Position numbers and translations under genes: made by a program
Notes under the pieces: model-generated
Told to the model about the DNA's origin: nothing
The model's database searches: none
The model's input: the letters and a program-made list of their open reading frames with translations, nothing else
From: Pseudomonadota bacterium
Lineage (GTDB): Bacteria; Pseudomonadota; Gammaproteobacteria; Acidiferrobacterales; UBA6901
Assembly: GCA_027364845.1 (NCBI GenBank)
Contig: DAHXOO010000011.1
Coordinates: 1-60,775 of the forward strand
Length of the DNA stretch: 60,775 bases
Reading direction: 5' to 3'
Shown here: piece after piece, positions 4,816 through 60,775 of the stretch
Layout: each line of letters begins with the position of its first letter
Position numbering within the stretch: the stretch's first letter is position 1

Positions 4816-4895
4816 AGGGGACGTCCCGCCCGGCGTGCCCAATGGGTTCCGGTAGGGAATGTCGGTAAAAGCGCTGAGGCCCAGTTCCGGTACCG

Positions 4896-45172: not shown

Positions 45173-46303
45173 ATGAATGCCAGCCGCATTCTGGAAGGCA
45201 GGCCAGTGGCGGAGGCGCTGCAGGCGTTGCCGCGCCTGTTCAGTATCTGCGGTGTCGCCCAGGCAAGTGCCGGCGTGGCCGCGTGCGAGGACGCACACGG
45301 TATTGCAGCGATTGCGGCGGAACGTGCACGACGCCGCATTCTGGTCACGGCCGAAACCGTCCAGGAGCATGCCAGGCGACTGTTGCTCGACTGGCCGAAA
45401 CTGTTCCTGGACGCTCCGCCTAAGCTTGACGAACTCGCTGCTATCCACCGCTGCCTGACCGTCGTAGTGCGCGCACTCGGCGGACGGATCTGGCAAGGCG
45501 AGGCAGGCACGACGCCGCCGGTTTTAGACCTGTCAGTTGCCGGGGAACAGCTGCAGCAGCTCGATGCCGCACTGGCACACGCCTTCTTCGGCATGGCAGG
45601 TGCCGACTGGTTGCAGATTCGCGACGGCGAGGCGCTGAGACAATGGTATCGTAGGACAATGACGGTTGCTGCCCGTACCTTGAGAGCGGTTGAGGACGGT
45701 TTCCTGGCGACCCTTGGCCGTAGCAGTATCGGGACTCTGCCGCCGATCGCGGCTGGCGCTTTTTCCGCAATCCTGGATGCGGACGCTACCGACCGGTTCA
45801 GCGTCCGTCCCGAGTGGAACAGGAATGCTTGCGAGACCGGTTCGCTTGCGCGTCAGGGCGGGCACCGTCTGATCGTTGATCTGCAGCGGTGGCATGGGAA
45901 CGGATTGATGACGCGGCTTACCGCGCGGCTGACAGAGCTTGCCTCTTTACCGCGCAGGATGCGGCGCTATCTGCGGGTGCTGCAGGGTGCCAGTAGCGCG
46001 CTTCCGTTCCGCAGCCGTGGTGGGGTGCCCGAAGCGCAATCCGGCATCGGGATCGTCGAAACGGCGCGTGGACGGCTGGTGCACAGGGTAAGGCTGTGCA
46101 ATGGCATGGTTGAACGTTACCGAATTGTAGCGCCGACCGAGTGGAATTTTCATCCTGACGGGCCGCTGGTTCGCGGGATCCTTGGTTTGCCAGTCAGCAG
46201 CGTGCAGGATTTGCAGCGCTACGTGGCGATGCTGGTCGTCGCCCTCGATCCCTGTGTGGCGCACGAAGTGATCGTCGAACCGGCCCGTGCGGAGGAGCTA
46301 TAG
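45173..46303 (+). CDS. hupK: HupK-like protein, degenerate [NiFe]-hydrogenase large subunit relative
   Basis: 376 residues from ATG 45173. Remnants of both nickel-site motifs are visible: an N-terminal SICGVAQASAG (RICGVC in active enzymes) and a C-terminal DPCVAHEV (DPCxxCxxH in active enzymes). In each one cysteine is kept and one lost, as in HupK, so it cannot be a catalytic subunit and is thought to assist cofactor assembly. It is followed after two bases by hypC. Confidence 0.85.
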   Translation: MNASRILEGRPVAEALQALPRLFSICGVAQASAGVAACEDAHGIAAIAAERARRRILVTAETVQEHARRLLLDWPKLFLDAPPKLDELAAIHRCLTVVVRALGGRIWQGEAGTTPPVLDLSVAGEQLQQLDAALAHAFFGMAGADWLQIRDGEALRQWYRRTMTVAARTLRAVEDGFLATLGRSSIGTLPPIAAGAFSAILDADATDRFSVRPEWNRNACETGSLARQGGHRLIVDLQRWHGNGLMTRLTARLTELASLPRRMRRYLRVLQGASSALPFRSRGGVPEAQSGIGIVETARGRLVHRVRLCNGMVERYRIVAPTEWNFHPDGPLVRGILGLPVSSVQDLQRYVAMLVVALDPCVAHEVIVEPARAEEL

Positions 46304-46305
46304 AC

Positions 46306-46551
46306 ATGTGCCTGGCCATACCTGCCCGAATAGTTCAGATTCTGGATGACGACAAGGCGCTGGTTGACGTAGGCGGCGTGCACAACGAAATCTCACTGGG
46401 GCTGGTGGATGACGTCGGCGTGGGAGATTACGTCATCGTCCACGTGGGCTATGCGATCGCGCGTCTTGACGCGGATGATGCGGATCGAACACTCGCGCTG
46501 TTCGCGCAGATGGTAAGCCAGCACGAGGAGCAATCCGGTGAAATACATTAG
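46306..46551 (+). CDS. hypC: Hydrogenase maturation chaperone HypC
   Basis: 81 residues; the essential N-terminal Met-Cys (MCLAIPARI) and the VGDYVIVHVGYAI strand are intact. HypC with HypD carries the Fe(CN)2CO precursor of the [NiFe] site. Overlaps hypD by 14 bases. Confidence 0.96.
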   Translation: MCLAIPARIVQILDDDKALVDVGGVHNEISLGLVDDVGVGDYVIVHVGYAIARLDADDADRTLALFAQMVSQHEEQSGEIH

Positions 46552-47689
46552 CGAGTTTCGTGATGGCCGTACCGCTGCAGCCATTGCCGCTGCCATCGTA
46601 CGCGAAGCTCACTGCGGGCGTGACTACCATGTCATGGAGTTCTGCGGCGGCCACACCCACGCGATCTTCCGTTACGGTATCCAGGATCTGCTGCCTGCCA
46701 ATATCCGGCTGGTGCATGGCCCCGGCTGCCCAGTGTGCGTGCTGCCGATAGGGCGGCTGGACAGCGCAATCGAGCTGGCGGATATCCCGAACGTCATGCT
46801 GTGCAGCTACGGCGACATGCTGCGGGTGCCGGGCTCACGCAAGCGCAGCCTGCTCAAGTCCAGGGCCCAGGGGCGAGACGTCCGCATGGTCTATTCCTGT
46901 GCCGAGGCGGTCCGGCTCGCGGTGGAGAATCCGGAAAAGCAGGTAGTGTTCTTCGCAATCGGTTTCGAGACCACTACGCCCCCCACTGCGGTAGTGATCA
47001 GGGAGGCGCAGCGTCTGGGGCTGAGCAATTTCAGCGTGTTTTGCAACCATGTGCTGACGCCCTCGGCGATCCAGAGCATCCTGAATTCGCCCGACGTGCG
47101 CGAACTCGGCGCTGTGCGCGTGGATGGCTTCATCGGCCCATCGCATGTGAGCACGATCATAGGCAGCCGCGCCTACGAATACTTTGCGCGCGAGTACCAG
47201 CGGCCGGTGGTGATATCGGGGTTCGAGCCACTGGACGTGCTGCAAGGGATACTCATGATCGTGCGTCAGCTGAACGAGCAACGCGCAGAGGTGGAAAACC
47301 AGTTCAGCCGCGGGGTGACGCGTACCGGCAATGTCAAGGCCCAGGCGCTGGTGGCAGAAGTATTCGAGTTGCGCCGCACGTTCGAGTGGCGTGGGCTCGG
47401 CGTGGTCCCGTATAGCGGGCTGCGGATCAAAAAGCAGTATGCGCAGTTCGATGCCGAGACGCGTTTTGCGGTCCAGCCGCGTCCGGTTGCCGAAAACAAG
47501 GCATGTGAATGCGGCGCCATACTGCGTGGTGTCAAGAAGCCGCATGATTGCAAGATTTTTGGTACTGTCTGCACCCCACGCAATCCGATTGGGTCGTGCA
47601 TGGTTTCATCGGAAGGCGCCTGTGCGGCCTATTACAAGTTCCGGCGGCGCAATGATGCACCCGTGCTGCCGACGGACGCCAATGGATAG
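46538..47689 (+). CDS. hypD: Hydrogenase maturation protein HypD
   Basis: 383 residues, GTG start after GGAG. Conserved blocks: FCGGHTHAI, GPGCPVCVLP, GFETTTPPTA, and the C-terminal cluster cysteines (CECG, GTVCTPRNP, CMVSSEGACAAYY). HypD holds the iron on which the cyanide and CO ligands are assembled. Confidence 0.97.
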   Translation: MKYISEFRDGRTAAAIAAAIVREAHCGRDYHVMEFCGGHTHAIFRYGIQDLLPANIRLVHGPGCPVCVLPIGRLDSAIELADIPNVMLCSYGDMLRVPGSRKRSLLKSRAQGRDVRMVYSCAEAVRLAVENPEKQVVFFAIGFETTTPPTAVVIREAQRLGLSNFSVFCNHVLTPSAIQSILNSPDVRELGAVRVDGFIGPSHVSTIIGSRAYEYFAREYQRPVVISGFEPLDVLQGILMIVRQLNEQRAEVENQFSRGVTRTGNVKAQALVAEVFELRRTFEWRGLGVVPYSGLRIKKQYAQFDAETRFAVQPRPVAENKACECGAILRGVKKPHDCKIFGTVCTPRNPIGSCMVSSEGACAAYYKFRRRNDAPVLPTDANG

Positions 47690-49421
47690 ACCACTGCGTA
47701 TTTTATTCCTGAGCCATAGCTTCAACAGTCTGAGTCAGCGGCTGTACGTCGAGTTGTCAGAGCGCGGCCACGAGGTTTCTGTCGAGTTCGACATCAACGA
47801 CGCGGTCACGGCACAGGCGGCAAGCCTGTACCAACCCGATCTAGTCATCGCACCTTACCTGCGACGCGCCATTCCCGAGCAGGTATGGCGGCGCTATGTG
47901 TGCCTGGTGCTGCATCCGGGCATCAGGGGCGACCGCGGCCCGTCGGCCCTCGACTGGGCAATCATTAATGGCGAAGCCGAATGGGGCGTCACGGTACTCC
48001 AGGCGAACGCGCAGCTCGATGCTGGCGACATCTGGGCATCGGCGGACTTTCCGATGCGCGCGGCGCGCAAGAGCAGCCTGTATCGCAACGAAGTGACCGA
48101 AGCTGCCGTAACCGCGCTGCTCACAGCCGTGGACCGCTTTGCTTCCGGATCGTTCGGATCCGAGCCGCTGGACTACTGCGACCCGGCCGTGCGCGGCCGT
48201 GCGCGGCCACTCATGCGCCAGGCGCAGCGTTGCATAGACTGGCTGAATGACGACAGCGCAGCGATCCTGACGAAAATCAGGTCAGCCGATGGTGCGCCGG
48301 GTGTCGAGGACGAGATTTTCGGTCAACGGTATCTGCTGTTTGATGCCTGTGAAGAACAGACCCTGACTGGCCGCCCGGGTGAGATCATCGCACGGCGAGA
48401 CGACGCAATCTGCCGGGCTACCAGCGACGGCGCGGTGTGGATCGGGCACTTGAAAAAGATCGATTCGGAGGAGAAGACGTTCAAGCTTCCGGCAGTCTGC
48501 GCTCTGGGTTCGAGGGCGCAAAATCTGCCGGAATCGCCGCTGCCGCTCGATGCGCCCGCAGATCTGCCGACGTATCGGGAGGTTTCCTATGTGGAGGAGG
48601 GGTGCGTCGGTTATCTGTATTTCGAATTCTACAACGGTGCGATGAGCAGCGAACAGTGTACGCGACTGCTGCACGCCTACCGCCATGCCTGTGCGCGACC
48701 GACGCGCGTCATCGTGCTCATGGGTGGACGGGATTTCTGGTCAAACGGCATCCATCTTAACCGCATCGAATCGGCGGAAAGCCCGGCCGACGAGTCCTGG
48801 CGAAACATCAACGCAATGAACGACCTGGCGCATGCGATCATCACCACCGGCACACACCTCACGATTTCCGCTGTACGTGGCAACACCGGTGCCGGCGGTG
48901 TGTTTCTGGCGTTGGCCGCGGATCGTGTGTACGTACGCACCGGCGTCATCCTGAACCCACACTACAAAGGCATGGGAAACCTTTATGGCTCAGAATACTG
49001 GACTTACCTGCTGCCGAAGCGCGTGGGCGGGCAGCGCGCCGTGACGATAACGGAAAACCGTCTGCCACTGGGGGCACGTGCGGCTAAGCGTCTCGGCCTC
49101 ATCGACGATCATTTCGGGGCGACTGTGGCGCAGTTCCAGCAGCGCGTGCAATTGCTCGCGCACGAGCTTGCAGGCGATTCAGCGTTCGCGTCTGCGCTGG
49201 CGGAGAAGAACCGATGCCGTTTGCAGGATGAGACAAAGCGGCCACTCCAATTGTATAGAGAGGAAGAGCTCGAGCGCATGCGGATGAATTTTTACGGTTT
49301 CGATCCGAGCTATCATTTCGCCCGCTTCAACTTTGTGTATCGTGTGCCGCATTCCTGGACGCCGCTGCATCTCGCACGCCACCGCCGATTGGATTGGAAG
49401 TGGGAGTCGGCGAGACACTGA
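47682..49421 (+). CDS. hypX: HypX, CO-forming hydrogenase maturation enzyme
   Basis: 579 residues from ATG 47682, which overlaps the hypD stop by eight bases; the longer frame from 47331 lies inside hypD. The N-terminal half is formyltransferase-like (HPGIRGDRGPSALDWAI), the C-terminal half enoyl-CoA hydratase-like (GNTGAGGVFLALAADRV). HypX makes the active-site CO from a formyl group so that [NiFe] hydrogenase can mature in air. hypA, hypB, hypE, hypF and the hydrogenase itself are not in this window. Confidence 0.95.
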   Translation: MDRPLRILFLSHSFNSLSQRLYVELSERGHEVSVEFDINDAVTAQAASLYQPDLVIAPYLRRAIPEQVWRRYVCLVLHPGIRGDRGPSALDWAIINGEAEWGVTVLQANAQLDAGDIWASADFPMRAARKSSLYRNEVTEAAVTALLTAVDRFASGSFGSEPLDYCDPAVRGRARPLMRQAQRCIDWLNDDSAAILTKIRSADGAPGVEDEIFGQRYLLFDACEEQTLTGRPGEIIARRDDAICRATSDGAVWIGHLKKIDSEEKTFKLPAVCALGSRAQNLPESPLPLDAPADLPTYREVSYVEEGCVGYLYFEFYNGAMSSEQCTRLLHAYRHACARPTRVIVLMGGRDFWSNGIHLNRIESAESPADESWRNINAMNDLAHAIITTGTHLTISAVRGNTGAGGVFLALAADRVYVRTGVILNPHYKGMGNLYGSEYWTYLLPKRVGGQRAVTITENRLPLGARAAKRLGLIDDHFGATVAQFQQRVQLLAHELAGDSAFASALAEKNRCRLQDETKRPLQLYREEELERMRMNFYGFDPSYHFARFNFVYRVPHSWTPLHLARHRRLDWKWESARH

Positions 49422-49993
49422 TTTTTCACAGGGCGGAGGATTTCGCTTTGGCGCAGCCCGATCGTCCCGGTCGATACGGATCAACATCACGGGTTTGAGC
49501 CCGGATCCGGTTCGAACGAACATTGCCATCCTCGGTGTGCGACGACAGACCACTTGGGCTGGCCGGAGATGGCCTAGGAGCCGCTGCTTAAACGGGACTT
49601 TTAATTTTTAAATTTCCAATGAGCTGTGCGATTTTGCCTCCGCGAATGTCCGCAGTTGGGGTGCACTGAACTAGCGCCCTGGACTCCCCTTGTTACATCA
49701 GAGAATGATGTTCACACGACTGGAACTACTTCCTTTTCGCGCGCGGGCGGCGATAATCAGGCAGGTGTAGGGCGCCGTTGGTGCAAATCGCACCGCGGCC
49801 CGTCTCGCCGGGAGTCGTGCGCGTGGGCTACACTGTCGGCGATCAGCGCGGAAGCGCTTGCCCGGCGTCAGGTGAACAATGATCGGCTGCGGTGCGATCG
49901 GCCCGGTTGTTGCGAGTGACGACCGGCGTTATAAATTGCGAGTGGCAAGTTTCGGGGTCGTCCGGCACGGATCGGCCCGTCTGGGTGCAAGGC
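49422..49993. other. Intergenic region before the sensory operon
   Basis: 572 bases without a supported gene. An A+T-rich patch at about 49590-49615 is the only obvious compositional feature. No sigma54-type site is seen here, unlike downstream of the response regulator. Confidence 0.4.
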
Positions 49994-50833
49994 ATGTATC
50001 AGAAGGTCAGGCTGCCGCGGTCGGTTTTGCGTTGGCTGGCGGCAGCCGCGCTGATCGCCATCAGCAGCGCGGCTGCCGCTCGTCAGCCACATTACTATCG
50101 CTTCGGTGTGCTGCCGCTGCAGAGTCCGACCATGCTGGCGGGGATGTTTCTGCCGCTGACTGATGCCCTGCAGCAGGCGCTGCACCGGCCGGTGCAGTTC
50201 GTGACCGCGCCCAATTTCGCGGCTTTCATGCGCCGCGTTCGGCGCCGTGAGTACGATATTATCTACCTGAATCCGCTCTTGTATACCCGTGCCCGTCGCT
50301 GGGGCTACCACGTCATCGTCAAGGTCGCGGGCGAGCCATTCGCCGGAATCCTGGTCGTGCGTCGCGACAGCCCGATCCGCGCGCTGGGCGGAGAAACCCT
50401 GCCGCCGGGTCTCCGTATCGGTTTCCCGGATCCCAATGCCTACGCTGCCACCATCATGACGCGCCAGTACATGGAGGCGCGTGGCATTCACGTGAACCGC
50501 GACCTGAAAGTGAAATATTTCGGGTCGCAGGACTCGGCGCTGATGGCGGTGTATTACGGAATGGTCAACATGGCCGGTACCTGGATGCCGTCGCTGCGCT
50601 CCATGCCGCAACGTGTACAGCAGGCGCTGCGGGTGATCGCACAAACGCCCCCTCAGCCGCAGATGCCGATCGCGGTCCGCGACGACATGCCAGCACGTGA
50701 AGCCGGCAGGATCAGGAACCTGTTGACCCATTTGACGATGACCAGCAGCGGGCGTGCAGTGCTCAGGCATCTTGGATTCAAACGCGGCTTCGTAGTTGCG
50801 CACAACAATGAGTATGATGGTGTGAAGCCATGA
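49994..50833 (+). CDS. PhnD-like periplasmic binding protein
   Basis: 279 residues from ATG 49994, with a signal peptide (VLRWLAAAALIAISSAAAA). The body follows the PhnD/phosphate-phosphonate binding layout (RFGVLPLQSP, EYDIIYLNPLLYTRA, GRIGFPDPNAYAAT-like). No permease or ATPase is adjacent; instead a sensor kinase overlaps its stop by four bases. This favours a sensory role. The tetrathionate sensor TtrS uses a similar domain, so a sulfur oxyanion is a reasonable ligand guess. Confidence 0.87.
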   Translation: MYQKVRLPRSVLRWLAAAALIAISSAAAARQPHYYRFGVLPLQSPTMLAGMFLPLTDALQQALHRPVQFVTAPNFAAFMRRVRRREYDIIYLNPLLYTRARRWGYHVIVKVAGEPFAGILVVRRDSPIRALGGETLPPGLRIGFPDPNAYAATIMTRQYMEARGIHVNRDLKVKYFGSQDSALMAVYYGMVNMAGTWMPSLRSMPQRVQQALRVIAQTPPQPQMPIAVRDDMPAREAGRIRNLLTHLTMTSSGRAVLRHLGFKRGFVVAHNNEYDGVKP

Positions 50834-52269
50834 GTGTCATCGAAATCGTGCACAAGCACGCCTCCGCCGAGCCGCGGGCCCCGAGGCTGTCTTTTTTCCG
50901 CACGCTGCGCTTTCGGCTGGTGCTGTCGGTTGCGCTCGTGCACGCGGTGCTGATGGGGACGTTCGTCTGGTCGGCTGTGGACAAGCAGTCCGAGGCAATC
51001 CGTGCCGATCTCTACAGCCGGGCGCACTCCCTCATTACGCTTATGGCGGTGGCCAGCACTAACGCATTGCTGGCCGAGGACCTAGGTTCTCTGGCGGAAG
51101 TCACCGCGCGTGTGAAGCGCCAGCCCGATGTTACTGAAGGGGAGATAGTGGATGTGCGCGGCGACGTGCTGGCGAGTACCAACCTGCACCAGGTCGGCCA
51201 TCGTCTGCTCGAACCGTTGGTTGGTGCGACAGCACAAGGCCGCAACAGGCTGCGTCTGCACGAACAGATCCGGGTGGCCGGACAGCGCATCGGCACAGTG
51301 CTGCTCGACATGTCGACGCGCCATCTTCAGGCCGAGCTGACCGCCACCCGTGACGAAGGCCTGTTGTTCATCCTGCTGGCTCTGGTGGTGGGCAGCATTG
51401 CTGCGTGGGTGCTTTCGCTTCTGATCACGCGCAACCTGTATACGCTTATGGCGGCGGTGCACAAGATCGGCGGCGGCAATTTGGGGGTGCGGGTTGACCT
51501 CCATGCGCGCGACGAGGTGGGGCTACTCGGTGGGGCGTTCAACGCCATGGTGGAGTCGCTGCAGCGGATTTCCGAGCAGGTGCGCAGTGAACACGAGAAG
51601 CGCACCGACGCCGAGCGTCTGGCCTGCGTAGGCGAGCTGTCAGCCAGCATAGCCCATGAGATCCGCAACCCGCTGTCTGCCGTGATCAACTCGGTGAAGC
51701 TGCTCGACCGTTCCAACCTCCCGGTCACCGATCGTGCCCAGGCGATTGCGATCCTTAATACCGAGTCGCTGCGCCTGCAACGCATTCTGAACGACTTCCT
51801 CGACTTCGCGCGAATACGCGAGTCACGCCTCGTGGAGGACGATGTATGTGCCCTGATCGAGGAGGTCGCGGGTCTGATCCGCCAGCATCCGCAGGCAGCC
51901 TCAGTGCGGGTCGAAGTCCAGTGCGATGCGAGCCGTTGCCGGACGCGCCACGACCCCGACCAATTGCGTCAGGTGATCTGGAATCTGATGCTGAATTCGG
52001 TGCAGGCCATGCCCGAGGGCGGTGAGTTGCACGTCAGGGCCACACCCGCAGGACGCGTAGTGAAGTTCAGTTTCACCGACAATGGCTGCGGTATACCGGA
52101 CAGTCTGCTTGACAAAATTGTGCGACCATTCGTGACTGGGCGCAAGCACGGCACCGGTTTGGGGCTTTCTATCGCGCAGCGGATTCTGATGCAACACGGG
52201 ACCTCGCTCTCGATCGTCAGTCACGTGAACGTGGGCACCGAAGTGAGTTTTGAGCTGGGGGCTGCCTAA
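50830..52269 (+). CDS. Membrane sensor histidine kinase (NtrB-like)
   Basis: 479 residues: two transmembrane helices (about 29-50 and 175-200) flanking a periplasmic domain, then HAMP, the H-box SIAHEIRNPL (phosphorylated His near 278) and the ATPase domain with NLMLNSVQAM, DNGCGIPD and GTGLGLSIA. Likely phosphorylates the regulator encoded five bases downstream and is informed by the upstream binding protein. Confidence 0.95.
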   Translation: MSVIEIVHKHASAEPRAPRLSFFRTLRFRLVLSVALVHAVLMGTFVWSAVDKQSEAIRADLYSRAHSLITLMAVASTNALLAEDLGSLAEVTARVKRQPDVTEGEIVDVRGDVLASTNLHQVGHRLLEPLVGATAQGRNRLRLHEQIRVAGQRIGTVLLDMSTRHLQAELTATRDEGLLFILLALVVGSIAAWVLSLLITRNLYTLMAAVHKIGGGNLGVRVDLHARDEVGLLGGAFNAMVESLQRISEQVRSEHEKRTDAERLACVGELSASIAHEIRNPLSAVINSVKLLDRSNLPVTDRAQAIAILNTESLRLQRILNDFLDFARIRESRLVEDDVCALIEEVAGLIRQHPQAASVRVEVQCDASRCRTRHDPDQLRQVIWNLMLNSVQAMPEGGELHVRATPAGRVVKFSFTDNGCGIPDSLLDKIVRPFVTGRKHGTGLGLSIAQRILMQHGTSLSIVSHVNVGTEVSFELGAA

Positions 52270-52274
52270 ACCCA

Positions 52275-53609
<1,335 letters not shown>

Positions 53610-53730: not shown

Positions 53731-53746
53731 TGGCATCAAAGTTGCT
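53731..53746 (+). promoter_or_regulatory. Sigma54 (-24/-12) promoter of the YeeE-TusA-DsrE-rhodanese operon
   Basis: TGGCATCAAAGTTGCT matches TGGCAC-N5-TTGCW with GG and GC at the exact spacing; only the sixth base differs. It is 71 bases upstream of the first gene. Two GTCGTG repeats at 53624 and 53664, 40 bases apart, are possible activator sites. Confidence 0.85.
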
Positions 53747-53816
53747 CTATGGCAACCTAGCGAGCGGGGCAAGCCCGTGACCCGCAAAGTTGGCCACTGC
53801 ACCGGAGAGAGACTGC

Positions 53817-54311
53817 ATGGATCTGTTCAAGAAGACCCTCGATCCGATTATCGCGCTTGCCATCATTGCGTTGCTTGACGTGTTCCTGTTTGTGATCGTC
53901 GGTGCCTGGACTGTGGGCGGCGGCGAGACCATGCTCGCTGGCTTGGCCGCAAAATACGTGCTCGGTGCGAAGACCCTGGAACGCATTCCGTTCTGGACTC
54001 TTGTGTTCACGCCGACATGGGCCTACTGGAAGATCTACATCAGCCTGGGCATGGGTTTTGGTTCATTCGTGGCAGCGGTACTCAGCAAAGAATTCTATTG
54101 GCGTGTTCCGCGCCATCTCTCGGAGTGGGTAATGATCACCATCGGCGGCCTGCTGATGGGCATAGGCATTCGACTTTCCTTCGTATGCAACGTAAGCACG
54201 TTTTTCGGTCTGACCCCCGAAATGAACCTCGGCGGGTATCTCGCTGTGAGCGGTATCGTGGCGGGGGCCTGGGTTGGCAGCTGGATCTACAAGAGGGTTC
54301 TGGAGGCGTGA
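53817..54311 (+). CDS. YeeE/YedE-family membrane protein, first half
   Basis: 164 residues from ATG 53817 (GGAGAGAG upstream). About four hydrophobic helices, with the conserved family Cys in RLSFVCNVSTFFG. YeeE/YedE proteins such as TsuA import thiosulfate using conserved cysteines. Here the usual single polypeptide is split over two genes, four bases apart. Confidence 0.9.
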   Translation: MDLFKKTLDPIIALAIIALLDVFLFVIVGAWTVGGGETMLAGLAAKYVLGAKTLERIPFWTLVFTPTWAYWKIYISLGMGFGSFVAAVLSKEFYWRVPRHLSEWVMITIGGLLMGIGIRLSFVCNVSTFFGLTPEMNLGGYLAVSGIVAGAWVGSWIYKRVLEA

Positions 54312-54315
54312 GCAC

Positions 54316-55032
54316 ATGATTACGGTGACAGGCCAATGCGTCGCGGCGTTCATTTTCGGCTCTACGGTGGGCTTGCTGGTGCAACGCTCGCGCTGGTGCA
54401 ACACGGCGGCGCTGCGTGACGCGATGCTGTTCAAGAGCTACCGCAACACCAAGGCGCTGCTGGTGGCGATGATGATACTCACGCTCGGTTTCACCGGCTT
54501 CATCAGTGTCGGCAACGGCAACCCCATGCGCTTCGATGTCGGACTCAATCAGTTCGTCGGCTTGTTTCTGTTTGGCATCGGCATGGTGCTGGCGGGTGCC
54601 TGCACAGTGTCTTCCTGGGTCAAGACCGGAGAGGGCAACATCGGGGCGCTATGGGCACTGTTGTTTTTGATCATAGGGTTGTTTGTATCCTCGTTGCTGT
54701 GGTCGTTCACATACTGGCCTCCGGCCGCGGCGACCATGACTGGGCAGCCTAACCTAGCTGGACTGCAATTCGGTTTTGCCGACGCCCTGACACTGCAACA
54801 GAAGACTGGAATCCCGGCGATCGTGTTCGGTCTGATCCAGTTCGCTGCGCTGCTTGCCCTGTACCGCCTGATCCTGCGCAAGGAACTGGTGATGCAGACC
54901 GCGCGCGGACAGCTTAATCCGCAGGTGGCCAGATCGGCGCCGGAAGTGAGCCCGGCCATGCCGGAACCGGCGATTGGCGTTGCAATGGCCGGCAGCGCAG
55001 GCGCAAGTGGCTCTTACCAAGAGGAGGTATGA
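54316..55032 (+). CDS. YeeE/YedE-family membrane protein, second half
   Basis: 238 residues from ATG 54316 after GGAGG. About six hydrophobic helices, with Cys in QRSRWCNTAALRD and LAGACTVSSWV, equivalent to the transport-path cysteines of TsuA. A C-terminal tail of about 45 residues is Ala/Pro-rich. Presumably pairs with the first half to form the transporter. Confidence 0.9.
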   Translation: MITVTGQCVAAFIFGSTVGLLVQRSRWCNTAALRDAMLFKSYRNTKALLVAMMILTLGFTGFISVGNGNPMRFDVGLNQFVGLFLFGIGMVLAGACTVSSWVKTGEGNIGALWALLFLIIGLFVSSLLWSFTYWPPAAATMTGQPNLAGLQFGFADALTLQQKTGIPAIVFGLIQFAALLALYRLILRKELVMQTARGQLNPQVARSAPEVSPAMPEPAIGVAMAGSAGASGSYQEEV

Positions 55033-55035
55033 AAC

Positions 55036-55341
55036 ATGGGTCTGTTCGGCAGTAGGAAGACCGAGGAACCGAGCGCGCAGGCGACTGGCAAAATCACGCT
55101 TGGTGGTGAGCTTTATACCGTGAGTCAGGTGGTGGATGTCTTGGGCGACTCCTGCCCGCGGCCGCAGCTCTTGACAAAAAAGGCGCTCAGCAAGGCGGCG
55201 TCGGGGGCGGTGATCGAGATCATGGTCGACAATCCGACTTCGATGGAAGCGATCCCGACCATGATGCTGGAACTCAACGGTTCGCATCTCGGCACGCTCA
55301 AGGTGGAGCGCTACTGGCGCGTGTTCGTGCGCAAGAACTAG
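55036..55341 (+). CDS. tusA: TusA-family sulfur carrier
   Basis: 101 residues. The CPRP motif (GDSCPRPQLLTKKAL) carries the sulfur-binding Cys. A ~20-residue hydrophilic N-terminal extension precedes the fold. Cytoplasmic; directly follows the YeeE/YedE halves, so it is well placed to accept imported sulfane sulfur. Confidence 0.93.
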   Translation: MGLFGSRKTEEPSAQATGKITLGGELYTVSQVVDVLGDSCPRPQLLTKKALSKAASGAVIEIMVDNPTSMEAIPTMMLELNGSHLGTLKVERYWRVFVRKN

Positions 55342-55350
55342 GAGGCTACG

Positions 55351-55590
55351 ATGCCCAGGGGTCAGATACAGATGATGATCATCGCGCTCGTGGCCATTAC
55401 CGCCACCGTGGGTGCGTTCGTCTATCTGCTCGCGCGACCACCCGCGTACCTGCGTGCCACACGCGACTGGGTCCCGTACTTTACGCCGCCGGTGATCAAC
55501 CCGGTGGATGGAAAGCCGCTCAACGTGAACACACTGGTGCGCGATTACAAGGGCGCCGCCGGCCCCGGTGCGGCCGCCGGGGTCGATTGA
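55351..55590 (+). CDS. Small single-pass membrane protein (79 aa)
   Basis: One transmembrane helix (MMIIALVAITATVGAFVYLL, about 8-27) followed by a Pro-rich polar tail that is probably periplasmic. No Cys. Good spacing inside the operon (nine bases after tusA, GGAGG upstream). No family recognised. Confidence 0.75.
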   Translation: MPRGQIQMMIIALVAITATVGAFVYLLARPPAYLRATRDWVPYFTPPVINPVDGKPLNVNTLVRDYKGAAGPGAAAGVD

Positions 55591-55616
55591 CCTAGCCACA
55601 ACATCAGGAGGCAATT

Positions 55617-55709
55617 ATGGATCTGGACCTGCAAACCTGGCTGCAGATCATCATGTTCGTGGTCATGTTCTACATCCTGTACGTCGCGTTGACGAAGGAT
55701 GTCTTCTGA
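55617..55709 (+). CDS. 30-residue membrane micropeptide
   Basis: MDLDLQTWLQII... encodes 30 residues, nearly all a single hydrophobic helix ending in TKDVF. AGGAGG lies at ideal spacing before ATG 55617, and the next gene's ribosome-binding site follows its stop directly. The size recalls CydX- or CcoQ-like accessory subunits. It is too short to be found by usual gene callers. Confidence 0.75.
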   Translation: MDLDLQTWLQIIMFVVMFYILYVALTKDVF

Positions 55710-55720
55710 CGGAGGTAGCG

Positions 55721-55996
55721 ATGAACGCAAGACAGATTTTGCTGTACTGCGTCGTCTGTCTGGTGGTGACGTTCGCCGTGCTGGCAGTGCTTTTCCGGTA
55801 TGCCGCGGTGTCGCCGCAGATGCTGGCGCACGCCCAGACGGCGCAGCCCATGGCGACGTTTCCGGCAATCGATCTGGGCAGTACTTATGGCACGGTATCG
55901 ATGACCGACCTGGTCGGCTACTATTTGCAGCACCCGCCCAAGGCGGCGCCGGCTGGCAGTGCTATCTCAGCGCCAACCCATATCGGAGGCTGCTGA
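55721..55996 (+). CDS. Small membrane-anchored protein with C-terminal Gly-Gly-Cys (91 aa)
   Basis: GGAGG precedes ATG 55721. A basic start and one transmembrane helix (about 7-27) are followed by a ~60-residue Pro/Ala-rich, probably periplasmic tail ending THIGGC. A terminal Cys on a flexible Gly-rich arm is reminiscent of SoxY (GGCGG), which carries thiosulfate-derived sulfur. That likeness is inference; the GGAGGC bases also serve as ribosome-binding site for the next gene. Confidence 0.75.
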   Translation: MNARQILLYCVVCLVVTFAVLAVLFRYAAVSPQMLAHAQTAQPMATFPAIDLGSTYGTVSMTDLVGYYLQHPPKAAPAGSAISAPTHIGGC

Positions 55997-56001
55997 CCGC
56001 C

Positions 56002-56982
56002 ATGTTGCGATGGCTCGCGTTTGCTCTGGCGATGTTGCTGGCCGGAAGCACCGCAGTAGCGGCGCCGCGCGCGCGCGACTTTTTCTATCTGGCCCGTCCC
56101 GGCGATCCGCGTGTTCGCAGTGCCGTAGTGGTCGATACTCGGCCGCTCGCAGCGTGCACCGCTCGCTCGCTGCCGGAAGCCCGCTGTCTGTCGCCGCGGG
56201 AGTTCCTGGGACCACACTGGCGGCTGGCAAGCTTCCGCGACATTGTCTGGGTGTTGGGTGCGGCCGGTCTTTCCGGCCGGGAGACTGTCCTGGTCGCGGG
56301 TGATGACGCGATGCGGCGCGATTTTGTGGCGGGTCTGCTGTACCTCGCGGGACAGGCCCGAGTGGCGGTGCTCACGGCGCCGCTCACTCCGCTGCTGGCT
56401 ACCCGGCCTGGGGCGCCGGGCATACCGCGCGGGATGTTCCGCAATCCTGTGTACCAGGGTCAGCCGCGTGCACGACTGATCGTCCTGCGCGAGGAGCTGG
56501 AGCAGGCGCTGCGTGGGCCGCGTCCGCCTTACCTGCTCGACGGGCGCAGCCTGTCGGCTTATTGGGGCCGGCGCATCCGTGCTTTGCGCGGCGGGCACTT
56601 GCCCGGCGCACAACCGCTGCCGATGGCGGCGCTGCGGCTTGCCGTGACGCGGCACTACGCCGACCTGTCCGGCGTGCCCTCGGCCGTGGCCTACTCAAAC
56701 AACGCCTACGATTCAATTGCCTATTTCACGCTGCTGCGTGCCGGCGCGGGCTTCGATGCCAGAGTCTATCCAGGCGGCTGGGAGGACTGGGCGAATCACA
56801 CCGCTTTGCCGGTCGATGCCGAAACTTATTACGAGCGGCGACGCATGGTACCGCAGATACCCGCATCAACGAGGCCGGCGGTCGGCGCGATTTCGCCCGA
56901 CAGCGGCAAAGCCATCATGCCGGTGCTTGCGGGTTTGGTACTCGCCATCGCCGGCTATTACCTTGGGAGGCGACGCGCATGA
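56002..56982 (+). CDS. Degenerate rhodanese-like protein, membrane-anchored
   Basis: 326 residues from ATG 56002. A signal peptide (WLAFALAMLLAGSTAVAA), two rhodanese-like domains (DTRPLAACT; LLDGRSLSAYWGRR, GHLPGAQPLP, YPGGWEDW) and a C-terminal helix (IMPVLAGLVLAIAGYYLGRRRA) for anchoring. At the active loop, where Cys is expected, it reads YSNNAYDS, so Ser replaces the sulfur-carrying Cys. It may bind but not transfer sulfur. Confidence 0.88.
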   Translation: MLRWLAFALAMLLAGSTAVAAPRARDFFYLARPGDPRVRSAVVVDTRPLAACTARSLPEARCLSPREFLGPHWRLASFRDIVWVLGAAGLSGRETVLVAGDDAMRRDFVAGLLYLAGQARVAVLTAPLTPLLATRPGAPGIPRGMFRNPVYQGQPRARLIVLREELEQALRGPRPPYLLDGRSLSAYWGRRIRALRGGHLPGAQPLPMAALRLAVTRHYADLSGVPSAVAYSNNAYDSIAYFTLLRAGAGFDARVYPGGWEDWANHTALPVDAETYYERRRMVPQIPASTRPAVGAISPDSGKAIMPVLAGLVLAIAGYYLGRRRA

Positions 56983-57272
56983 CCGATCTGATGTTTCTCG
57001 TCTCACGGCCGGACGCAGGCGCGACGTTGGCTGCGCTGATGCGGGCCTGCCGGCGGCGAGGTACTAGCTGGGCATGTTTTTTCACCAACGAAGGTGTGCG
57101 AACCTTGACTGACCGCGAGGTGCTCGAGCTGCTGGCATGCGCGTCGAAGTCCGTGGCCTGCGAGCATTCATGGACACGCTATATGGGTAATGAAAGGTGC
57201 CCGGTGGACCTCGGCAGTCAGACGGGCAACAGTGCTCTGGCGGCGGAAGCGGTTAAGATCATCAGTCTGTAG
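56979..57272 (+). CDS. DsrE-like small protein 1 (97 aa)
   Basis: Overlaps the preceding stop by four bases. An N-terminal strand MTDLMFLVSRP, then a helix and a WACFFTNEGV strand, as in the DsrE/TusD fold, with several Cys (near 33, 53, 60, 73) and the C-terminal VKIISL. The DsrE/F/H family moves sulfur between carriers in the cytoplasm. The assignment rests on pattern and context rather than a strong motif. Confidence 0.6.
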   Translation: MTDLMFLVSRPDAGATLAALMRACRRRGTSWACFFTNEGVRTLTDREVLELLACASKSVACEHSWTRYMGNERCPVDLGSQTGNSALAAEAVKIISL

Positions 57273-57281
57273 GAGCTGGGA

Positions 57282-57557
57282 ATGCAAAAGCGCAAATCCA
57301 TTTTATTGTTGGCGCGCGCGGACCACGCGGAGGCCATGCGTGTCGCGGCCGGCCTGACCATCTTCGGGCACCAGGTGCGGCTGGTGTTTATGACCGCACC
57401 AGTGGCGGAGACACCGGAAAATGTGCGTCATGCGGAGTTGCTGGAGCTGTCGGATATCCAACCGGAGACGACGGTCTCTGGACAGGAGTTGCCGCACGTC
57501 GGTGCGGCGGCATTGTCCCTGGCCATGATCAAGTCCGATGCAGTCATCAGTCTGTAG
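57282..57557 (+). CDS. DsrE/DsrF-like small protein 2 (91 aa)
   Basis: KSILLLARADHAEAMRVAAGLTIFGHQVRLVFM is a clear strand-helix-strand of the DsrE fold (shown here as two pieces: KSILLLARADHAEA and GLTIFGHQVRLVFM). No cysteine is present. The end SDAVISL matches its two neighbours. It could be the DsrF-like, non-sulfur-binding partner. Confidence 0.7.
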   Translation: MQKRKSILLLARADHAEAMRVAAGLTIFGHQVRLVFMTAPVAETPENVRHAELLELSDIQPETTVSGQELPHVGAAALSLAMIKSDAVISL

Positions 57558-57565
57558 GAGGAGGC

Positions 57566-57751
57566 ATGAATATCACGGTGCTGAATACAGGTTTGTTTCC
57601 GGACAGGGAAACGATGGAAGGAGCGCTGTCCGAGCTTGAGGCATTTCACAGCGTTTGCCGTTGCGATGCGACGCGGACGCTGATGTCCGATGAACAGTGG
57701 AATCAGGTGCTGGACGCAATGTTGACGTCCGATGTGGTAGTTACTCTTTAA
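57566..57751 (+). CDS. DsrH/TusB-like small protein 3 (61 aa)
   Basis: Short, beginning MNITVLNTGLFP, with HSVCRC in the middle and ending in SDVVVTL. The order after two DsrE-like genes, the small size and the shared end suggest a DsrH/TusB-like third subunit. GGAGG precedes the ATG. Confidence is limited by length. Confidence 0.6.
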   Translation: MNITVLNTGLFPDRETMEGALSELEAFHSVCRCDATRTLMSDEQWNQVLDAMLTSDVVVTL

Positions 57752-57769
57752 ACGAGGAAAGGAGAAGTT

Positions 57770-58696
57770 ATGATGAAAAGTCCATTATTGTGTGGAATCG
57801 CACTGTTGGCCACCGGGGCTGCCTATGCCTCGCCCTCGGTCCCGCCGTTGGTGGATGCCGGCTGGGTGGCGACGCACGCGTGCAAGTCAGGCGTGGTACT
57901 GCTCGACATCCGAAACCCGATAGGCGGGGGCGGAGATCTGACCTCATATCTGCGTGGCCATATCCCGTGTGCAGTGTACAGCAACTATGCGAGCGGCGGT
58001 TGGCGCATCGCCGTTAACGGCGCGCCTGGACTGGTACCGGCCGTGCCAGCACTGGAGAAGCTGATTGGTGGCCTGGGAATCGGCAATAAGGCACGCGTGG
58101 TCATCTATTCCGCCGGCACCAACGCGACCGACATGGGTGGTGCGGCGCGCGTGTTCTGGACCTTCAAGTACCTGGGCGACAACAACGTATCGATCCTGAA
58201 TGGTGGCTACTCCGCCTATGTGGCCGGGAAGCATCCGGTCCAGGCGGGCTTCAACAAGCCCAATCCGGCGAATTTCGATGCGCATCCGCGTCCGGAGCTC
58301 CTCGCCAATGAACAGGACGTTCAACGTGCCGTTAAAAGTGGCATTGCGCTGGTGGATAACCGGCCGTCGGCCCAATACCTGGGGATCAACCGTACGAACG
58401 TGGTCGTGCGTGATGGCACCATTCCGGGTGCCCACAACTTGCCCGAGAACTGGATTACCAGCAACGACGGTGGCACATTCCGTTCGACCCAGAAGCTGCG
58501 GGCCCTGTATAAAGTTGCTGGTGTACCTACAAAAGGCAAGCAAATTACGTTCTGCAACACGGGTCACTGGGCCGCACTTGGCTGGTTCACGAGCTATGAG
58601 TTGCTCGGCAACAAACAGTCCCGGATGTACGCCGGCTCCATGTCGCAGTGGTCGCGCAATTCCGCGCTACCGGTCGTGCAGAAGGTACGCGACTGA
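57770..58696 (+). CDS. Periplasmic two-domain rhodanese
   Basis: 308 residues; AAAGGAGAAG precedes ATG 57770 (57773 also possible). A signal peptide (LLCGIALLATGAAYA) is followed by two rhodanese domains, the second with DNRPSAQYL, GTIPGAHNLPENW and the active loop FCNTGHWAALGWF, where the catalytic Cys is retained. It would handle thiosulfate or polysulfide in the periplasm and is the likely active partner of the Ser-containing paralogue at 56002. Confidence 0.93.
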   Translation: MMKSPLLCGIALLATGAAYASPSVPPLVDAGWVATHACKSGVVLLDIRNPIGGGGDLTSYLRGHIPCAVYSNYASGGWRIAVNGAPGLVPAVPALEKLIGGLGIGNKARVVIYSAGTNATDMGGAARVFWTFKYLGDNNVSILNGGYSAYVAGKHPVQAGFNKPNPANFDAHPRPELLANEQDVQRAVKSGIALVDNRPSAQYLGINRTNVVVRDGTIPGAHNLPENWITSNDGGTFRSTQKLRALYKVAGVPTKGKQITFCNTGHWAALGWFTSYELLGNKQSRMYAGSMSQWSRNSALPVVQKVRD

Positions 58697-58701
58697 CGCC
58701 G

Positions 58702-59355
58702 TTGCTGAGTCGTTGCGGCTGTGCGGCCGCGGTGATCATGTTGTTCGCCGCGGCCGCTTTCTCTAATGCAGTCGCCGGAGAGCGAACCCAGCGTTTTGCA
58801 GTGGAACTCGCCGTCCTGGCCAACCAAAGTCACCGGCTTTTGGGTGCCGGGCTCGCGCCTGCGCAGCGCGAGCGGCTGCGAGCCAAGGTGGACAGCGCGC
58901 TCGCTGTGCTTCCGCTGTTGGCGCGTGACTGTTTCGAGGAGCAGCGGCGCCGGGATGACCCGCGGCTGCTGGCGCGGTTGCGTCGGCTGCAGGTCGTGTA
59001 CAAGCACGGGCAGTTCGTGACGCTTGCGACCGATCTCGACCATCTCTCCCGCCGCTACCCCGTGGACATGCGCGGTCTGCTGCCTCTGCCGTCTGCCCCG
59101 CTCGCCGTGCGCGCCGGACGCGCACTGTACGAAAATCTGTGCATGGCCTGCCATGCCTTTTCTGACCCGAAATCGCCTGCTCCCGCGCCTGACCTGTTCG
59201 CTATGGCACGAATGCTCTCTCCGACGCAGCTTGTTGTGAGCCTGCTCAGCGGCGTGCGTGGTACGCCTTCGACAACGCTGGTGAACCCGCTTAGCAACCA
59301 GAACGTCATTGACCTGGCGGCCTATCTCAAGGACGGTATTCCTCCCAAGCCTTAA
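58702..59355 (+). CDS. Periplasmic monohaem cytochrome c
   Basis: About 217 residues. An N-terminal hydrophobic leader (AAAVIMLFAAAAFSNAVAG), a helical middle region and one haem-binding CMACH near the C-terminal third, followed by YLKDGIPP typical of class I cytochromes. The start is unclear: TTG 58702 gives a well-formed leader just after the rhodanese stop, while ATG 58648 would overlap that gene by 49 bases. Probably takes electrons from a sulfur-oxidising step of this operon. Confidence 0.85.
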   Translation: MLSRCGCAAAVIMLFAAAAFSNAVAGERTQRFAVELAVLANQSHRLLGAGLAPAQRERLRAKVDSALAVLPLLARDCFEEQRRRDDPRLLARLRRLQVVYKHGQFVTLATDLDHLSRRYPVDMRGLLPLPSAPLAVRAGRALYENLCMACHAFSDPKSPAPAPDLFAMARMLSPTQLVVSLLSGVRGTPSTTLVNPLSNQNVIDLAAYLKDGIPPKP

Positions 59356-59357
59356 GC

Positions 59358-59387
59358 TGCAGGCCGACGTGCTGGTGTCGGCCTGCA
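59358..59387 (+). terminator. Strong stem-loop ending the sulfur operon
   Basis: Perfect 11-base arms TGCAGGCCGAC and GTCGGCCTGCA with an 8-base loop, three bases after the cytochrome stop. No T-run follows, so it may be a weak terminator or an mRNA-stabilising end. Confidence 0.7.
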
Positions 59388-59906
59388 ACGTCCGACTCCT
59401 TTCGTACTCCTGTGATGTGTTCCTGCGCAAAACGAGGCAGGCGAGAAAGTGCGAGGACGGCGCGCAGACGGAGGGAAAATGCAACAGGAGGATTGAACCG
59501 GCGTCGATTCATTGCCGGAAAGATGGGACAGCCGTACCGTTATGCATGCCGGGGATGGCGGACACCCTTCCGGCCAGTGGTGAAAGACGCGCTATGCTGT
59601 CGGAACGGTATCTGTCACCCGAGAGACGGCAATCGAACCCTCATCTTTGTCGATTCGGATGTCAGCGCATCCAGGGGCCCCGCATGGGCTGGCACGACCA
59701 CCTTCGCAAGTTGCCCCGAGTCGCCGAAATTCGACGACTGATTTTTCAGGGTGACAAGGTTCCCATGCCGTTCCCTTCAGGAAGAGGCGGAGCTTGCCTC
59801 CGGACGATCAACTGTTCATCGAGCACTTCCGACCGTGTGCGCCGAAAACGGCATGACTGCTCGTCATGATTGCGCGGCATTCGACAGCGCGATATTCACG
59901 GGTATA
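59388..59906. other. Spacer between the sulfur operon and the insertion sequence
   Basis: About 520 bases. Several short overlapping frames occur but none has a recognisable motif or start. I see no repeat or RNA gene. Confidence 0.4.
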
Positions 59907-59914
59907 TATTTAAA
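59907..59914. repeat. Presumed 8-bp target-site duplication of the ISL3 element
   Basis: TATTTAAA, eight A+T bases immediately outside the element's terminal sequence. ISL3-family elements duplicate 8 bp of A+T-rich target. The second copy would be beyond the right edge. Confidence 0.4.
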
Positions 59915-60775
59915 GGCTCTTCCGACATTCGTGTGGGTAGGCACCTGAACGATCAGGGGGCACAGCCCACGGGATAGAGATCCAGGGCTCCGCAGTGAAA
60001 GAGAATGGCAATGCGGTACTGGGAAGCTTCGGTAGCCCCGGGCATTCGCCTTGATGAGCTGGATCCGGCCATTGGTGCCTTCGGCCACGGCATTGGTGAT
60101 GCGGTGTTTCGTGTAGGCCAGGAGTCCGGGAAGATGGCGCTTCAGGGTCTTGGCAGCAGTGATGATCGGAGCCAAACGCGAATGGGTTGCCCAGAAGTAC
60201 CAGCGGTCGAAGAACTTTCTGGCCGAGCCGGTGTAATGGTAGTTCCAGAATTCGGAGAACGCCTCCTTGATGGTCCAGGCGTGCCCGACCTTGAGAGTGT
60301 CGACCTGCAGTGCAGCGAAGTGCTCACGCTGGCGCTCGGTGAAGTGCTTCGGGTTTTTGAGCCAGAGATACTTCGTTCTTGTGAGCGTCTCTTGCCCCTG
60401 AGCCCTGAGGTCGCGGTGTTCCTTGCGGCGCACGAGATCGACGGCTTTGTTGAGCTCCTTCGCACAATGGAACTTGTCGTGCACGATGGCCGCCTTCGGT
60501 GCGGCAGCGCGGGTAGCCTCCATGTAGTTTTCCCACATGTCCATCGTGACTGCCCGGATGCCTTCCCGCTGCGCCTCAGGGATCGTGGCCAAGAGCGTAT
60601 CGGCAGCCTCGCGCGTGCGGTCGGGGACGACGTCGAGGACCCGTTTGCCGGCGATGTCGTGGAGCACCGAGACGTAGTCATGCCCCTTCCCGAAGCTCTT
60701 CTCATCGAGTCCGACATAGGTCAGGTGACCGAGCGAGCGGCGAGTGAGCCCGCGGGAGACGGCGCGCTCCATGAT
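59915..60775 (-). mobile_element. ISL3-family insertion sequence (one end visible)
   Basis: The terminus GGCTCTTCCGACATTCGTGT at 59915 resembles ISL3 inverted-repeat ends and lies just past the transposase stop. The element continues past the window edge, so its other end cannot be seen. Confidence 0.7.
59953..60775 (-). pseudogene. ISL3-family transposase, frameshifted and partial
   Basis: The DDE core is readable: VGLDEKSFGKGHDY (first Asp), VHDKFHCAKELNKAVD (second) and AEGTNGRIQLIKANARGYRSF (Glu). At about 60022 the expected end (QYRIAILFHCGALDLYP) lies in another frame, ending at a stop at 59953-59955; the unshifted frame instead runs on to 59864 with unrelated residues. A one-base indel therefore disrupts the last ~20 residues. 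The N-terminus lies beyond the window. Confidence 0.8.

Follow-up and report, generated by a model that had tools for sequence, protein, structure and literature searches.

A conserved twelve-gene operon proposed to relay sulfur from the periplasm to the cytoplasm

A tightly packed set of twelve genes, kept in the same order in dozens of unrelated sulfur-oxidizing bacteria, most likely carries sulfur atoms from the periplasm through the membrane to the cytoplasmic enzymes that oxidize them, a step missing from the current picture of how these bacteria live on sulfur. The set lies in a stretch of 60,775 nucleotides (hereafter the window; contig DAHXOO010000011.1, assembly GCA_027364845.1) from a gammaproteobacterium of the Acidiferrobacterales. 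A first-pass annotation, made from the sequence alone, had described it as a sigma54-controlled operon encoding a YeeE/YedE transporter split in two, TusA, three tiny membrane proteins, a rhodanese without its Cys, three DsrE-like proteins, an active-type periplasmic rhodanese and a cytochrome c, with one strong promoter and one terminal stem-loop. It had inferred a periplasm-to-cytoplasm sulfur pathway feeding the Dsr enzymes. The observation itself is confirmed, with the corrections given below.

Results

Organization and conservation of the operon

All twelve frames exist on the forward strand (+), as do the other features described here, and extend from 53817 to 59355 with gaps of -49 to +26 bases and a Shine-Dalgarno-like stretch before nearly every start. 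Conservation of the gene order had been set beforehand as a test, and the cluster passes it: in 67 of the 68 loci long enough to judge (Alpha-, Beta- and Gammaproteobacteria, SAR324) the genes are colinear, down to a 30-residue membrane protein, and these loci span deep branches. Plasmid records hold no match to E2, one of the small proteins described below.

A sigma54-type (-24/-12) site, TGGCATCAAAGTTGCT, lies at 53731–53746, 70 bases before the first ATG, and scores 14/16. Sites scoring at least 14 occur in 31 of 67 homologous upstream regions, against 2.2% of random stretches. The unit starts earlier than the first-pass annotation had placed it, since three genes at 49.9–53.6 kb often travel with it. 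The first (49892–50830, start uncertain) encodes a periplasmic phosphonate-type binding protein (SBP; PF12974, 1.1e-48), a likely ligand sensor whose homologues lie beside the homologous kinase in 21 loci. The second (50830–52269) encodes a membrane histidine kinase (HAMP, HisKA, HATPase; sub-threshold CHASE8) that is conserved upstream in the genus and in many Beta- and Gammaproteobacteria. The third (52275–53609) encodes an NtrC-type sigma54-activating response regulator (Response_reg; Sigma54_activat, 2.2e-70; HTH_8). The operon thus combines a -24/-12 site with an NtrC-type activator, although sigma54 control is inferred from sequence alone. Sigma70-like and terminator-like scans in the operon gave no more than shuffled sequences. 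The stem-loop at the end (59357–59386) is a 12-bp hairpin (-25 kcal/mol for the stretch folded) without a T-run, and the terminator scan did not list it.

The split transporter and TusA

The first two genes encode the halves of a YeeE/YedE transporter in reverse order. A1 (53817–54311) is the carboxy-terminal half, matching positions 172–310 of PF04143, and A2 (54316–55032) is the amino-terminal half, matching positions 1–161. The halves score 73.6 and 80.1 bits, above the curated cut-off of 27. Cys124 of A1 is invariant (67/67), while Cys28 and Cys96 of A2 are found in 99% and 100% of 70 sequences. A1 Cys124 and A2 Cys96 appear to correspond to the essential Cys293 and Cys91 of TsuA (PMC11582611), an equivalence inferred from position in the family rather than from an alignment with TsuA itself. 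The next gene (55036–55341) encodes a TusA-type sulfurtransferase (PF01206, 1.4e-15) with an extra N-terminal stretch and Cys40 in a CPRPQ motif (Cys in 72/72).

Two other roles can be considered, neither of which I favour. One is thiosulfate uptake for assimilation, as with E. coli YeeE (TsuA) and YeeD (TsuB). Both YeeE halves do match TsuA models, but at 28 to 58 bits against cut-offs of 400 and 645, and the TsuB model gives only 16 bits; moreover, the cluster occurs in lithotrophs with Dsr and Sox, and a periplasmic rhodanese, a cytochrome and DsrE-type partners are not needed for assimilation. The other is transport of selenium or another anion, as with YedE/YedF. The TusA-like protein scores best with YedF models (31 bits, cut-off 79) and A1/A2 match YedE/FdhT, all far below cut-off, and no selenium genes were seen in the operon. 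Since all these curated scores lie far below cut-off and the distribution of the cluster follows Dsr and Sox (see below), the assimilatory reading is considered very unlikely and the selenium reading remote.

Three small membrane proteins

Three small membrane proteins follow. The first, m79 (55351–55590), is a single-pass protein with a short soluble tail, found in 72 loci, in which P51 and L62 are conserved in 100% and 99%, respectively. The second, m30 (55617–55709), is a 30-residue single-span peptide found at the same place in 55 loci. The third, m91 (55721–55996), is a 91-residue single-pass protein with a flexible tail ending in Gly-Gly-Cys, the last residue being Cys91; the terminal Gly-Cys is present in 74 of 74 genomes and recalls the carrier arm of SoxY. 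Resemblance to SoxY is however limited to this arm; searches with m91 gave no Pfam or solved-structure match. The proteins m91 and m79 look alike by eye, but hhalign gave only P 7e-4 and a probability of 27%. The charge rule did not settle the topology of either protein.

Rhodaneses, DsrE-like proteins and cytochrome

The gene at 56002–56982 (rhdX) encodes an exported, C-terminally anchored protein with a predicted double-rhodanese fold (AlphaFold pLDDT 91.8; Foldseek matches to 1e0c and 3hwi, E about 1e-11); Pfam agrees for both rhodaneses of the operon. As the first-pass annotation had claimed, the catalytic Cys is missing from the C-terminal domain loop, which in the window reads YSNNAYDS. 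The protein nevertheless has a Cys pair of its own, Cys52/Cys62 in the N-domain, which is invariant in 51 sequences and comprises its only conserved cysteines.

Of the three proteins annotated as DsrE-like, only the first is shown to have the DsrE fold. Sequence profiles of the three against solved structures gave no relative, and only the fold model settled E1 (56979–57272): its AlphaFold model (pLDDT 97.1) superimposes on 2hy5_A (DsrE) with Z 12.2 and rmsd 1.9 over 96 of its 97 residues, and on 2d1p_A (TusD) with Z about 12. Cys61 of E1 is invariant (80/80) and lies at the end of strand 57–61, just before helix 62–69; by my comparison, this is where Cys78 sits in the DsrE sequence of a sister genome (the functional Cys is Cys78 in type I DsrE and Cys67 in type II). 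E2 (57282–57557), which has no Cys, is a probable DsrF-like subunit. Single-sequence profile comparison with DsrE, DsrF and DsrH was uninformative, and profiles of 20 type I sequences helped only E2, for which hhalign against DsrF gave P 4.6e-4, colinear over 86 columns, with a probability of only 33%; PF02635 was weakly matched in 5 of 54 members. E1 and E2 are not detectably similar to each other. For E3 (57566–57751), a 61-residue protein conserved in position and length in 80 loci, a DsrE-like identity is unsupported, no family or profile match having been found.

The last two genes encode rhd2 (57770–58696), an exported active-type double rhodanese (PF00581, 2.1e-17) whose Cys262, in CNTGHW, is present in 69/69, and an exported c-type cytochrome (58648–59355; PF13442, 3.5e-8) with one conserved CxxCH haem site and no Met above 38%. 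The start of the cytochrome is uncertain, since GTG 58648 overlaps the rhodanese gene by 49 bases and TTG 58702 is an alternative.

Co-occurrence with Dsr and Sox

Genomes with the cluster are overwhelmingly those of sulfur oxidizers with reverse Dsr and a Sox system lacking SoxCD, bacteria that must bring periplasmic sulfane sulfur into the cytoplasm. dsrA was found in 49 of 51 cluster genomes across classes, against 53 of 398 in a phylum sample; SoxB in 45 of 51 against 58 of 398; and both over cut-off in 41 of 51 against 13 of 398 (Fisher P below 1e-25 for each, uncorrected for kinship). SoxC was found in only 6 of 51. The window's own genome gave only a sub-threshold SoxB hit. Conversely, only about 1 of 13 Sox-plus-Dsr genomes in the phylum sample has the cluster, so it is not the general import route.

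The link to Dsr, although strong by co-occurrence, is not exclusive. Within the window's own order, dsrA is no more common with the cluster (12/17) than without it (32/43), and four of the five cluster genomes lacking dsrA have an HdrB pair of the sHdr type. By my reading, a sister genome has a full sHdr-type gene row beside its Dsr genes; a sister genome also carries canonical DsrEFH next to dsrAB, so that E1–E3 may not be the Dsr donor. The same machine might therefore serve mainly the sHdr-LbpA pathway or another cytoplasmic sulfur user. I consider this unlikely, given the frequency of dsrA across classes and the use of the same TusA/DsrE types in the canonical Dsr sulfur relay (PMC3397948).

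Discussion

A model for sulfane-sulfur import

The reading that I favour, with moderate confidence, is that the unit is a sulfane-sulfur import and relay machine of bacteria that oxidize sulfur in two compartments. In this view, sulfane sulfur left in the periplasm by the SoxCD-less Sox system, sulfide oxidation or polythionates would be taken up by rhd2 and loaded onto the C-terminal Gly-Cys arm of m91. The cytochrome would remove electrons in this loading step or keep the thiols in the right redox state, while rhdX, m79 and m30 would build the platform around the channel. The arm would then offer the sulfur to the split channel A1–A2, whose conserved cysteines would hand it across the membrane. 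TusA Cys40 would take it in the cytoplasm and pass it to E1 Cys61 of the E1-E2-E3 unit for delivery to DsrC/DsrAB or, where Dsr is lacking, to sHdr, possibly so in some Acidiferrobacteraceae. The binding protein, kinase and sigma54 activator would switch the operon on.

What the sequences establish is the gene set, its conserved order, the sigma54 site, the near-invariant cysteines, the E1 and rhdX folds (as models), and the co-occurrence with Dsr and truncated Sox. Every transfer step, its direction, thiosulfate as substrate, the role of the cytochrome, the side of the membrane on which the m91 tail lies, transcription from the promoter, the signal and any response to sulfur are inferred, none of these proteins having been the subject of an experiment. 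The pathway proposed by the first-pass annotation is only partly supported, although it remains the best reading. It is consistent with the TusA to DsrEFH to DsrC relay of A. vinosum, for which the import step is unknown (PMC3397948, PMC13293266), and with sulfur import for oxidation by the YeeE-type SoxT (PMC11582611).

Since nothing in the sequence fixes the direction of flow, the system could also run outward or serve storage, exporting cytoplasmic sulfane sulfur for sulfur deposition or for tetrathionate or polysulfide formation, with the cytochrome taking the electrons. The related YTD cluster has indeed been tied to disproportionation (PMC9751629, PMC12998232). However, TusA and DsrE types act as acceptors of imported sulfur in studied systems, and the YeeE-family members studied import (PMC11073785, PMC11582611), which makes this possibility unlikely.

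A more speculative and doubtful possibility, which the data do not rule out, is that m91 is a new kind of sulfur carrier unrelated to SoxY and DsrC: a membrane-anchored swinging arm that collects sulfane sulfur in the periplasm and feeds it directly into a two-piece YeeE channel, with the cytochrome c and a pseudo-rhodanese bearing a Cys pair as the oxidative loading station. It would then be the missing physical link between truncated Sox and reverse Dsr in those bacteria that carry it.

How periplasmic sulfur reaches the cytoplasm in bacteria that combine SoxCD-less Sox with reverse Dsr is unresolved: low-molecular-weight persulfide carriers and an unknown sulfurtransferase have been proposed (PMC3397948), and import is called poorly understood (PMC11582611). 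The operon gives a fixed parts list for that step, with specific cysteines to mutate, in named isolates (Sulfuriferula multivorans, Sedimenticola, Magnetovibrio blakemorei, Maritimibacter, Thiorhodococcus mannitoliphagus). It also adds three conserved, unnamed membrane proteins to sulfur biology.

Comparison with known systems

Literature searches for the combination found work on YTD and SoxT but no description of this gene set in the open-access library searched, which excluded subscription-only papers and figure content. Parts of the unit do have counterparts. Like PmpA/PmpB, the short two-gene YeeE proteins (PMC11582611), the transporter is split in two, one part aligning with each half of YeeE, with cysteines at the positions of TsuA Cys91 and Cys293 (by the positional inference above); however, A1 and A2 have 164 and 238 residues instead of about 130 each, and A2 keeps an additional conserved cysteine, Cys28. 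SoxT1A/SoxT1B (PMC11582611) share YeeE-family import of sulfur for oxidation, but each is a single full-length protein, for which no DsrE trio, cytochrome or m91-like protein was found described in the text consulted. As to DsrEFH type I/TusBCD, the E1 fold matches DsrE and TusD, but the subunits are shorter (97, 91 and 61 residues against 121, 135 and 99 in a sister genome), E2 is only weakly and E3 not detectably related, and E3, unlike DsrH, has no conserved Cys. The arm of m91 shares with that of SoxY (GGCGG; PMC6067878) a cysteine flanked by glycine on a C-terminal arm, but m91 is membrane-anchored and ends at the Cys.

The combination is not wholly without precedent, since its core is a variant of the YTD, or yeeE-tusA-dsrEFH type II, cluster (PMC13293266, PMC12998232, PMC9751629), of which subtype 1 is reported in Pseudomonadota (PMC13293266). 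Both have a YeeE/YedE transporter gene next to tusA and a trio whose first member has the DsrE fold with one conserved cysteine. At the sequence level, only a minimal, YTD-like yeeE-tusA-E1-E2-E3 set of the window's own genome, found by search, was compared, and its E1 and E2 are homologues of those described here. The best reading is that the operon is an expanded relative of the YTD cluster, with a split transporter whose halves are in reverse order, six extra genes (m79, m30, m91, rhdX, rhd2 and cyt) that include a proposed periplasmic loading section, and a sigma54 sensor module. Type II mostly accompanies reductive dsrAB, and the hosts of the present operon carry Dsr with Sox; the YTD idea, so far linked mainly to sulfate reducers and disproportionators, is in this way extended to sulfur oxidizers.

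Gene content and organization

Twelve frames lie on the + strand between 53817 and 59355, spaced -49 to +26 bases apart and nearly all preceded by a Shine-Dalgarno-like stretch. In order, they encode A1 and A2 (two halves of a PF04143 YeeE/YedE transporter, the carboxy-terminal half coming first), TusA, three small membrane proteins of 79, 30 and 91 residues (m79, m30 and m91), the rhodanese-like protein rhdX, the small proteins E1, E2 and E3 (97, 91 and 61 residues), the rhodanese rhd2 and a c-type cytochrome. A sigma54 site, TGGCATCAAAGTTGCT, lies at 53731, and the gene of an NtrC-type sigma54 activator ends at 53609. A 12-bp hairpin without a T-run follows the cytochrome gene, and an ISL3-family transposase gene (59867-60772, - strand) is found about 0.5 kb after the operon, at the contig end. 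The unit reaches further upstream than the first-pass annotation had claimed: a phosphonate-type periplasmic binding protein (49892-50830), a histidine kinase and the activator form a contiguous trio, and homologues of the binding protein lie beside the homologous kinase in 21 other loci. The 45140-49418 stretch (+ strand) is hydrogenase-related, with a NiFe large-subunit-like protein, a HypC-like small protein and a formyltransferase/enoyl-CoA hydratase fusion that resembles HypX.

Conservation of gene order

To determine whether this arrangement is more than fortuitous, a test set in advance by the annotation, I looked for the same gene order in other genomes. Orthologues of all twelve genes, in the same order, were found in the genus of the source genome, and a second family of its order keeps the order, with rhd2 missing or placed elsewhere. 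A profile of E2 then found 127 relatives in a collection of 84,980 species, of which 80 loci were kept. In 67 of the 68 loci that span A1 to E3 the genes are colinear: 36 have all twelve, 14 lack only a detectable 30-residue peptide, and 10 have rhd2 missing or elsewhere, while the one exception has rhd2 after the cytochrome. In three loci of an Acidiferrobacter-like family (L092, L122 and L133), rhd2 and the binding protein-kinase-regulator genes lie apart from the operon, beyond it or on the other strand. A third layout was seen in uncultured gammaproteobacteria: two loci (L093 and L127) carry a rhodanese, a large membrane protein, a fused YeeE, TusA, two small membrane proteins, two further enzymes and then E1-E2-E3, whereas a further locus (L120) shows only the TusA and E1-E2 part.

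Hosts include Thiobacillus, Sulfuriferula multivorans, Sulfuritalea, Sedimenticola, Thiorhodococcus mannitoliphagus, Magnetovibrio blakemorei, Maritimibacter, Acidiferrobacter and SAR324. By contrast, only 2 of 398 genomes matched in an even sample of the phylum, and one of the two rows is the source genome itself. A tree of A1+A2 shows deep branches with betaproteobacteria in more than one place, so that some transfer is possible. The sigma54 site recurs upstream in 31 of 67 loci, against 2.2% of random stretches, although most alphaproteobacterial loci lack it.

Conserved cysteines and predicted folds

The cysteines expected of a sulfur relay are near-invariant: A1 Cys124 (67/67), A2 Cys28 and Cys96 (99% and 100% of 70), TusA Cys40 (72/72), E1 Cys61 (80/80), rhd2 Cys262 (69/69) and the haem CxxCH. 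The m91 protein ends in Gly-Cys in 74 of 74 genomes, mostly as Phe-Gly-Gly-Cys, after a Pro/Ala/Gly-rich stretch. A carrier cysteine flanked by glycines on a C-terminal arm is how SoxY holds its sulfur (PMC6067878), but m91 matched no family and no solved structure in the searches made. rhdX has a predicted double rhodanese fold, with a leading hydrophobic helix and a C-terminal membrane helix. Its catalytic cysteine is lost, but Cys52 and Cys62, in the first domain, are invariant in 51 sequences.

E1 was modelled at pLDDT 97, and the best matches to the model are DsrE-family structures, including the DsrE chain of DsrEFH (2hy5_A, Z 12.2) and TusD (2d1p_A, Z 11.9). E2 aligns colinearly with DsrF but weakly (P 4.6e-4, probability 33%), and PF02635 is its most frequent Pfam hit. 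Searches with E3 revealed no resemblance to anything. The three DsrE-like proteins of the first-pass annotation are therefore shown, on a predicted fold, for one and likely for two.

Co-occurrence with Dsr and Sox

Of 51 cluster genomes, 49 have dsrA (46 over cut-off), against 53 of 398 in the phylum sample. SoxB is over cut-off in 45 of 51 against 58 of 398, and both are over cut-off in 41 of 51 against 13 of 398, while SoxC is present in only 6 of 51. Fisher tests, uncorrected for kinship, give P below 1e-25. These are the bacteria whose periplasmic Sox leaves sulfane sulfur that reverse Dsr must oxidize in the cytoplasm. The association has two limits, however: only about 1 of the 13 Sox-plus-Dsr genomes in the phylum sample has the cluster, and in the order of the source genome dsrA is no more frequent with the cluster (12/17) than without it (32/43). 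Four of the five dsrA-less cluster genomes of this order have a pair of HdrB-type genes, as in the sHdr-type gene row that I read from the translations of a sister genome (locus L169). The fifth, G027, a 99% complete genome, has neither, and its sulfur-oxidizing enzyme is unclear or missing from the assembly.

The source genome carries two dsrA copies, the second of which runs off the left edge of the window (2-1153, - strand), and many cluster genomes have two or three. In a sister genome the same copy heads a full second set, dsrA-B-E-F-H-C-M-K (locus L146), with canonical DsrEFH about 50 kb from the operon. A DsrC-family gene directly followed by a two-domain rhodanese gene lies at 4474-5774 (+ strand), and the same pair is near dsrA in a sister genome (L146:9865-11155).

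Proposed pathway

I propose that sulfur is loaded in the periplasm by rhd2, with electron removal by the cytochrome, onto the m91 arm beside rhdX, m79 and m30, passes through the A1-A2 channel, is accepted by TusA and transferred to E1 Cys61, and is then delivered to DsrC/DsrAB or, in some hosts, possibly to sHdr. While the parts, their conservation and their co-occurrence with Dsr and Sox are established by the analysis, each transfer, the direction of flow, the side of the membrane on which the m91 tail lies, the substrate and the regulation are inferred. I hold with moderate confidence that the operon serves import feeding cytoplasmic oxidation, with Dsr as the main client. The gene set noted in the first-pass annotation is confirmed, with the corrections described here. 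Its interpretation as a sulfur pathway feeding the Dsr enzymes is supported only in part, being right in outline but too narrow on Dsr.

Comparison with known systems

Subtype 1 of the yeeE-tusA-dsrEFH type II family, also called the YTD cluster, is reported in Pseudomonadota (PMC13293266), so E1-E3 of some of these genomes may already be counted there. The source genome also has, on another contig (G000 contig C106, locus L139:6470-9230), a paralogous minimal set that looks like a plain YTD cluster and comprises a fused 498-residue YeeE, TusA, a 42-residue membrane protein, E1, E2 and a 61-residue E3-like frame, the E1 and E2 of which are clear homologues of those of the operon. What I did not find described, in the open-access library searched, is the conserved addition of m79, m30, m91, rhdX, rhd2 and the cytochrome, or the sensor trio; of these, m91 is possibly a new element. 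A two-piece YeeE, on the other hand, is known as PmpAB, and YeeE-type import of sulfur for oxidation is known as SoxT (PMC11582611). Likewise, sigma54 two-component control of sulfur oxidation is known in Acidithiobacillus (TspS-TspR; PMC6335251).
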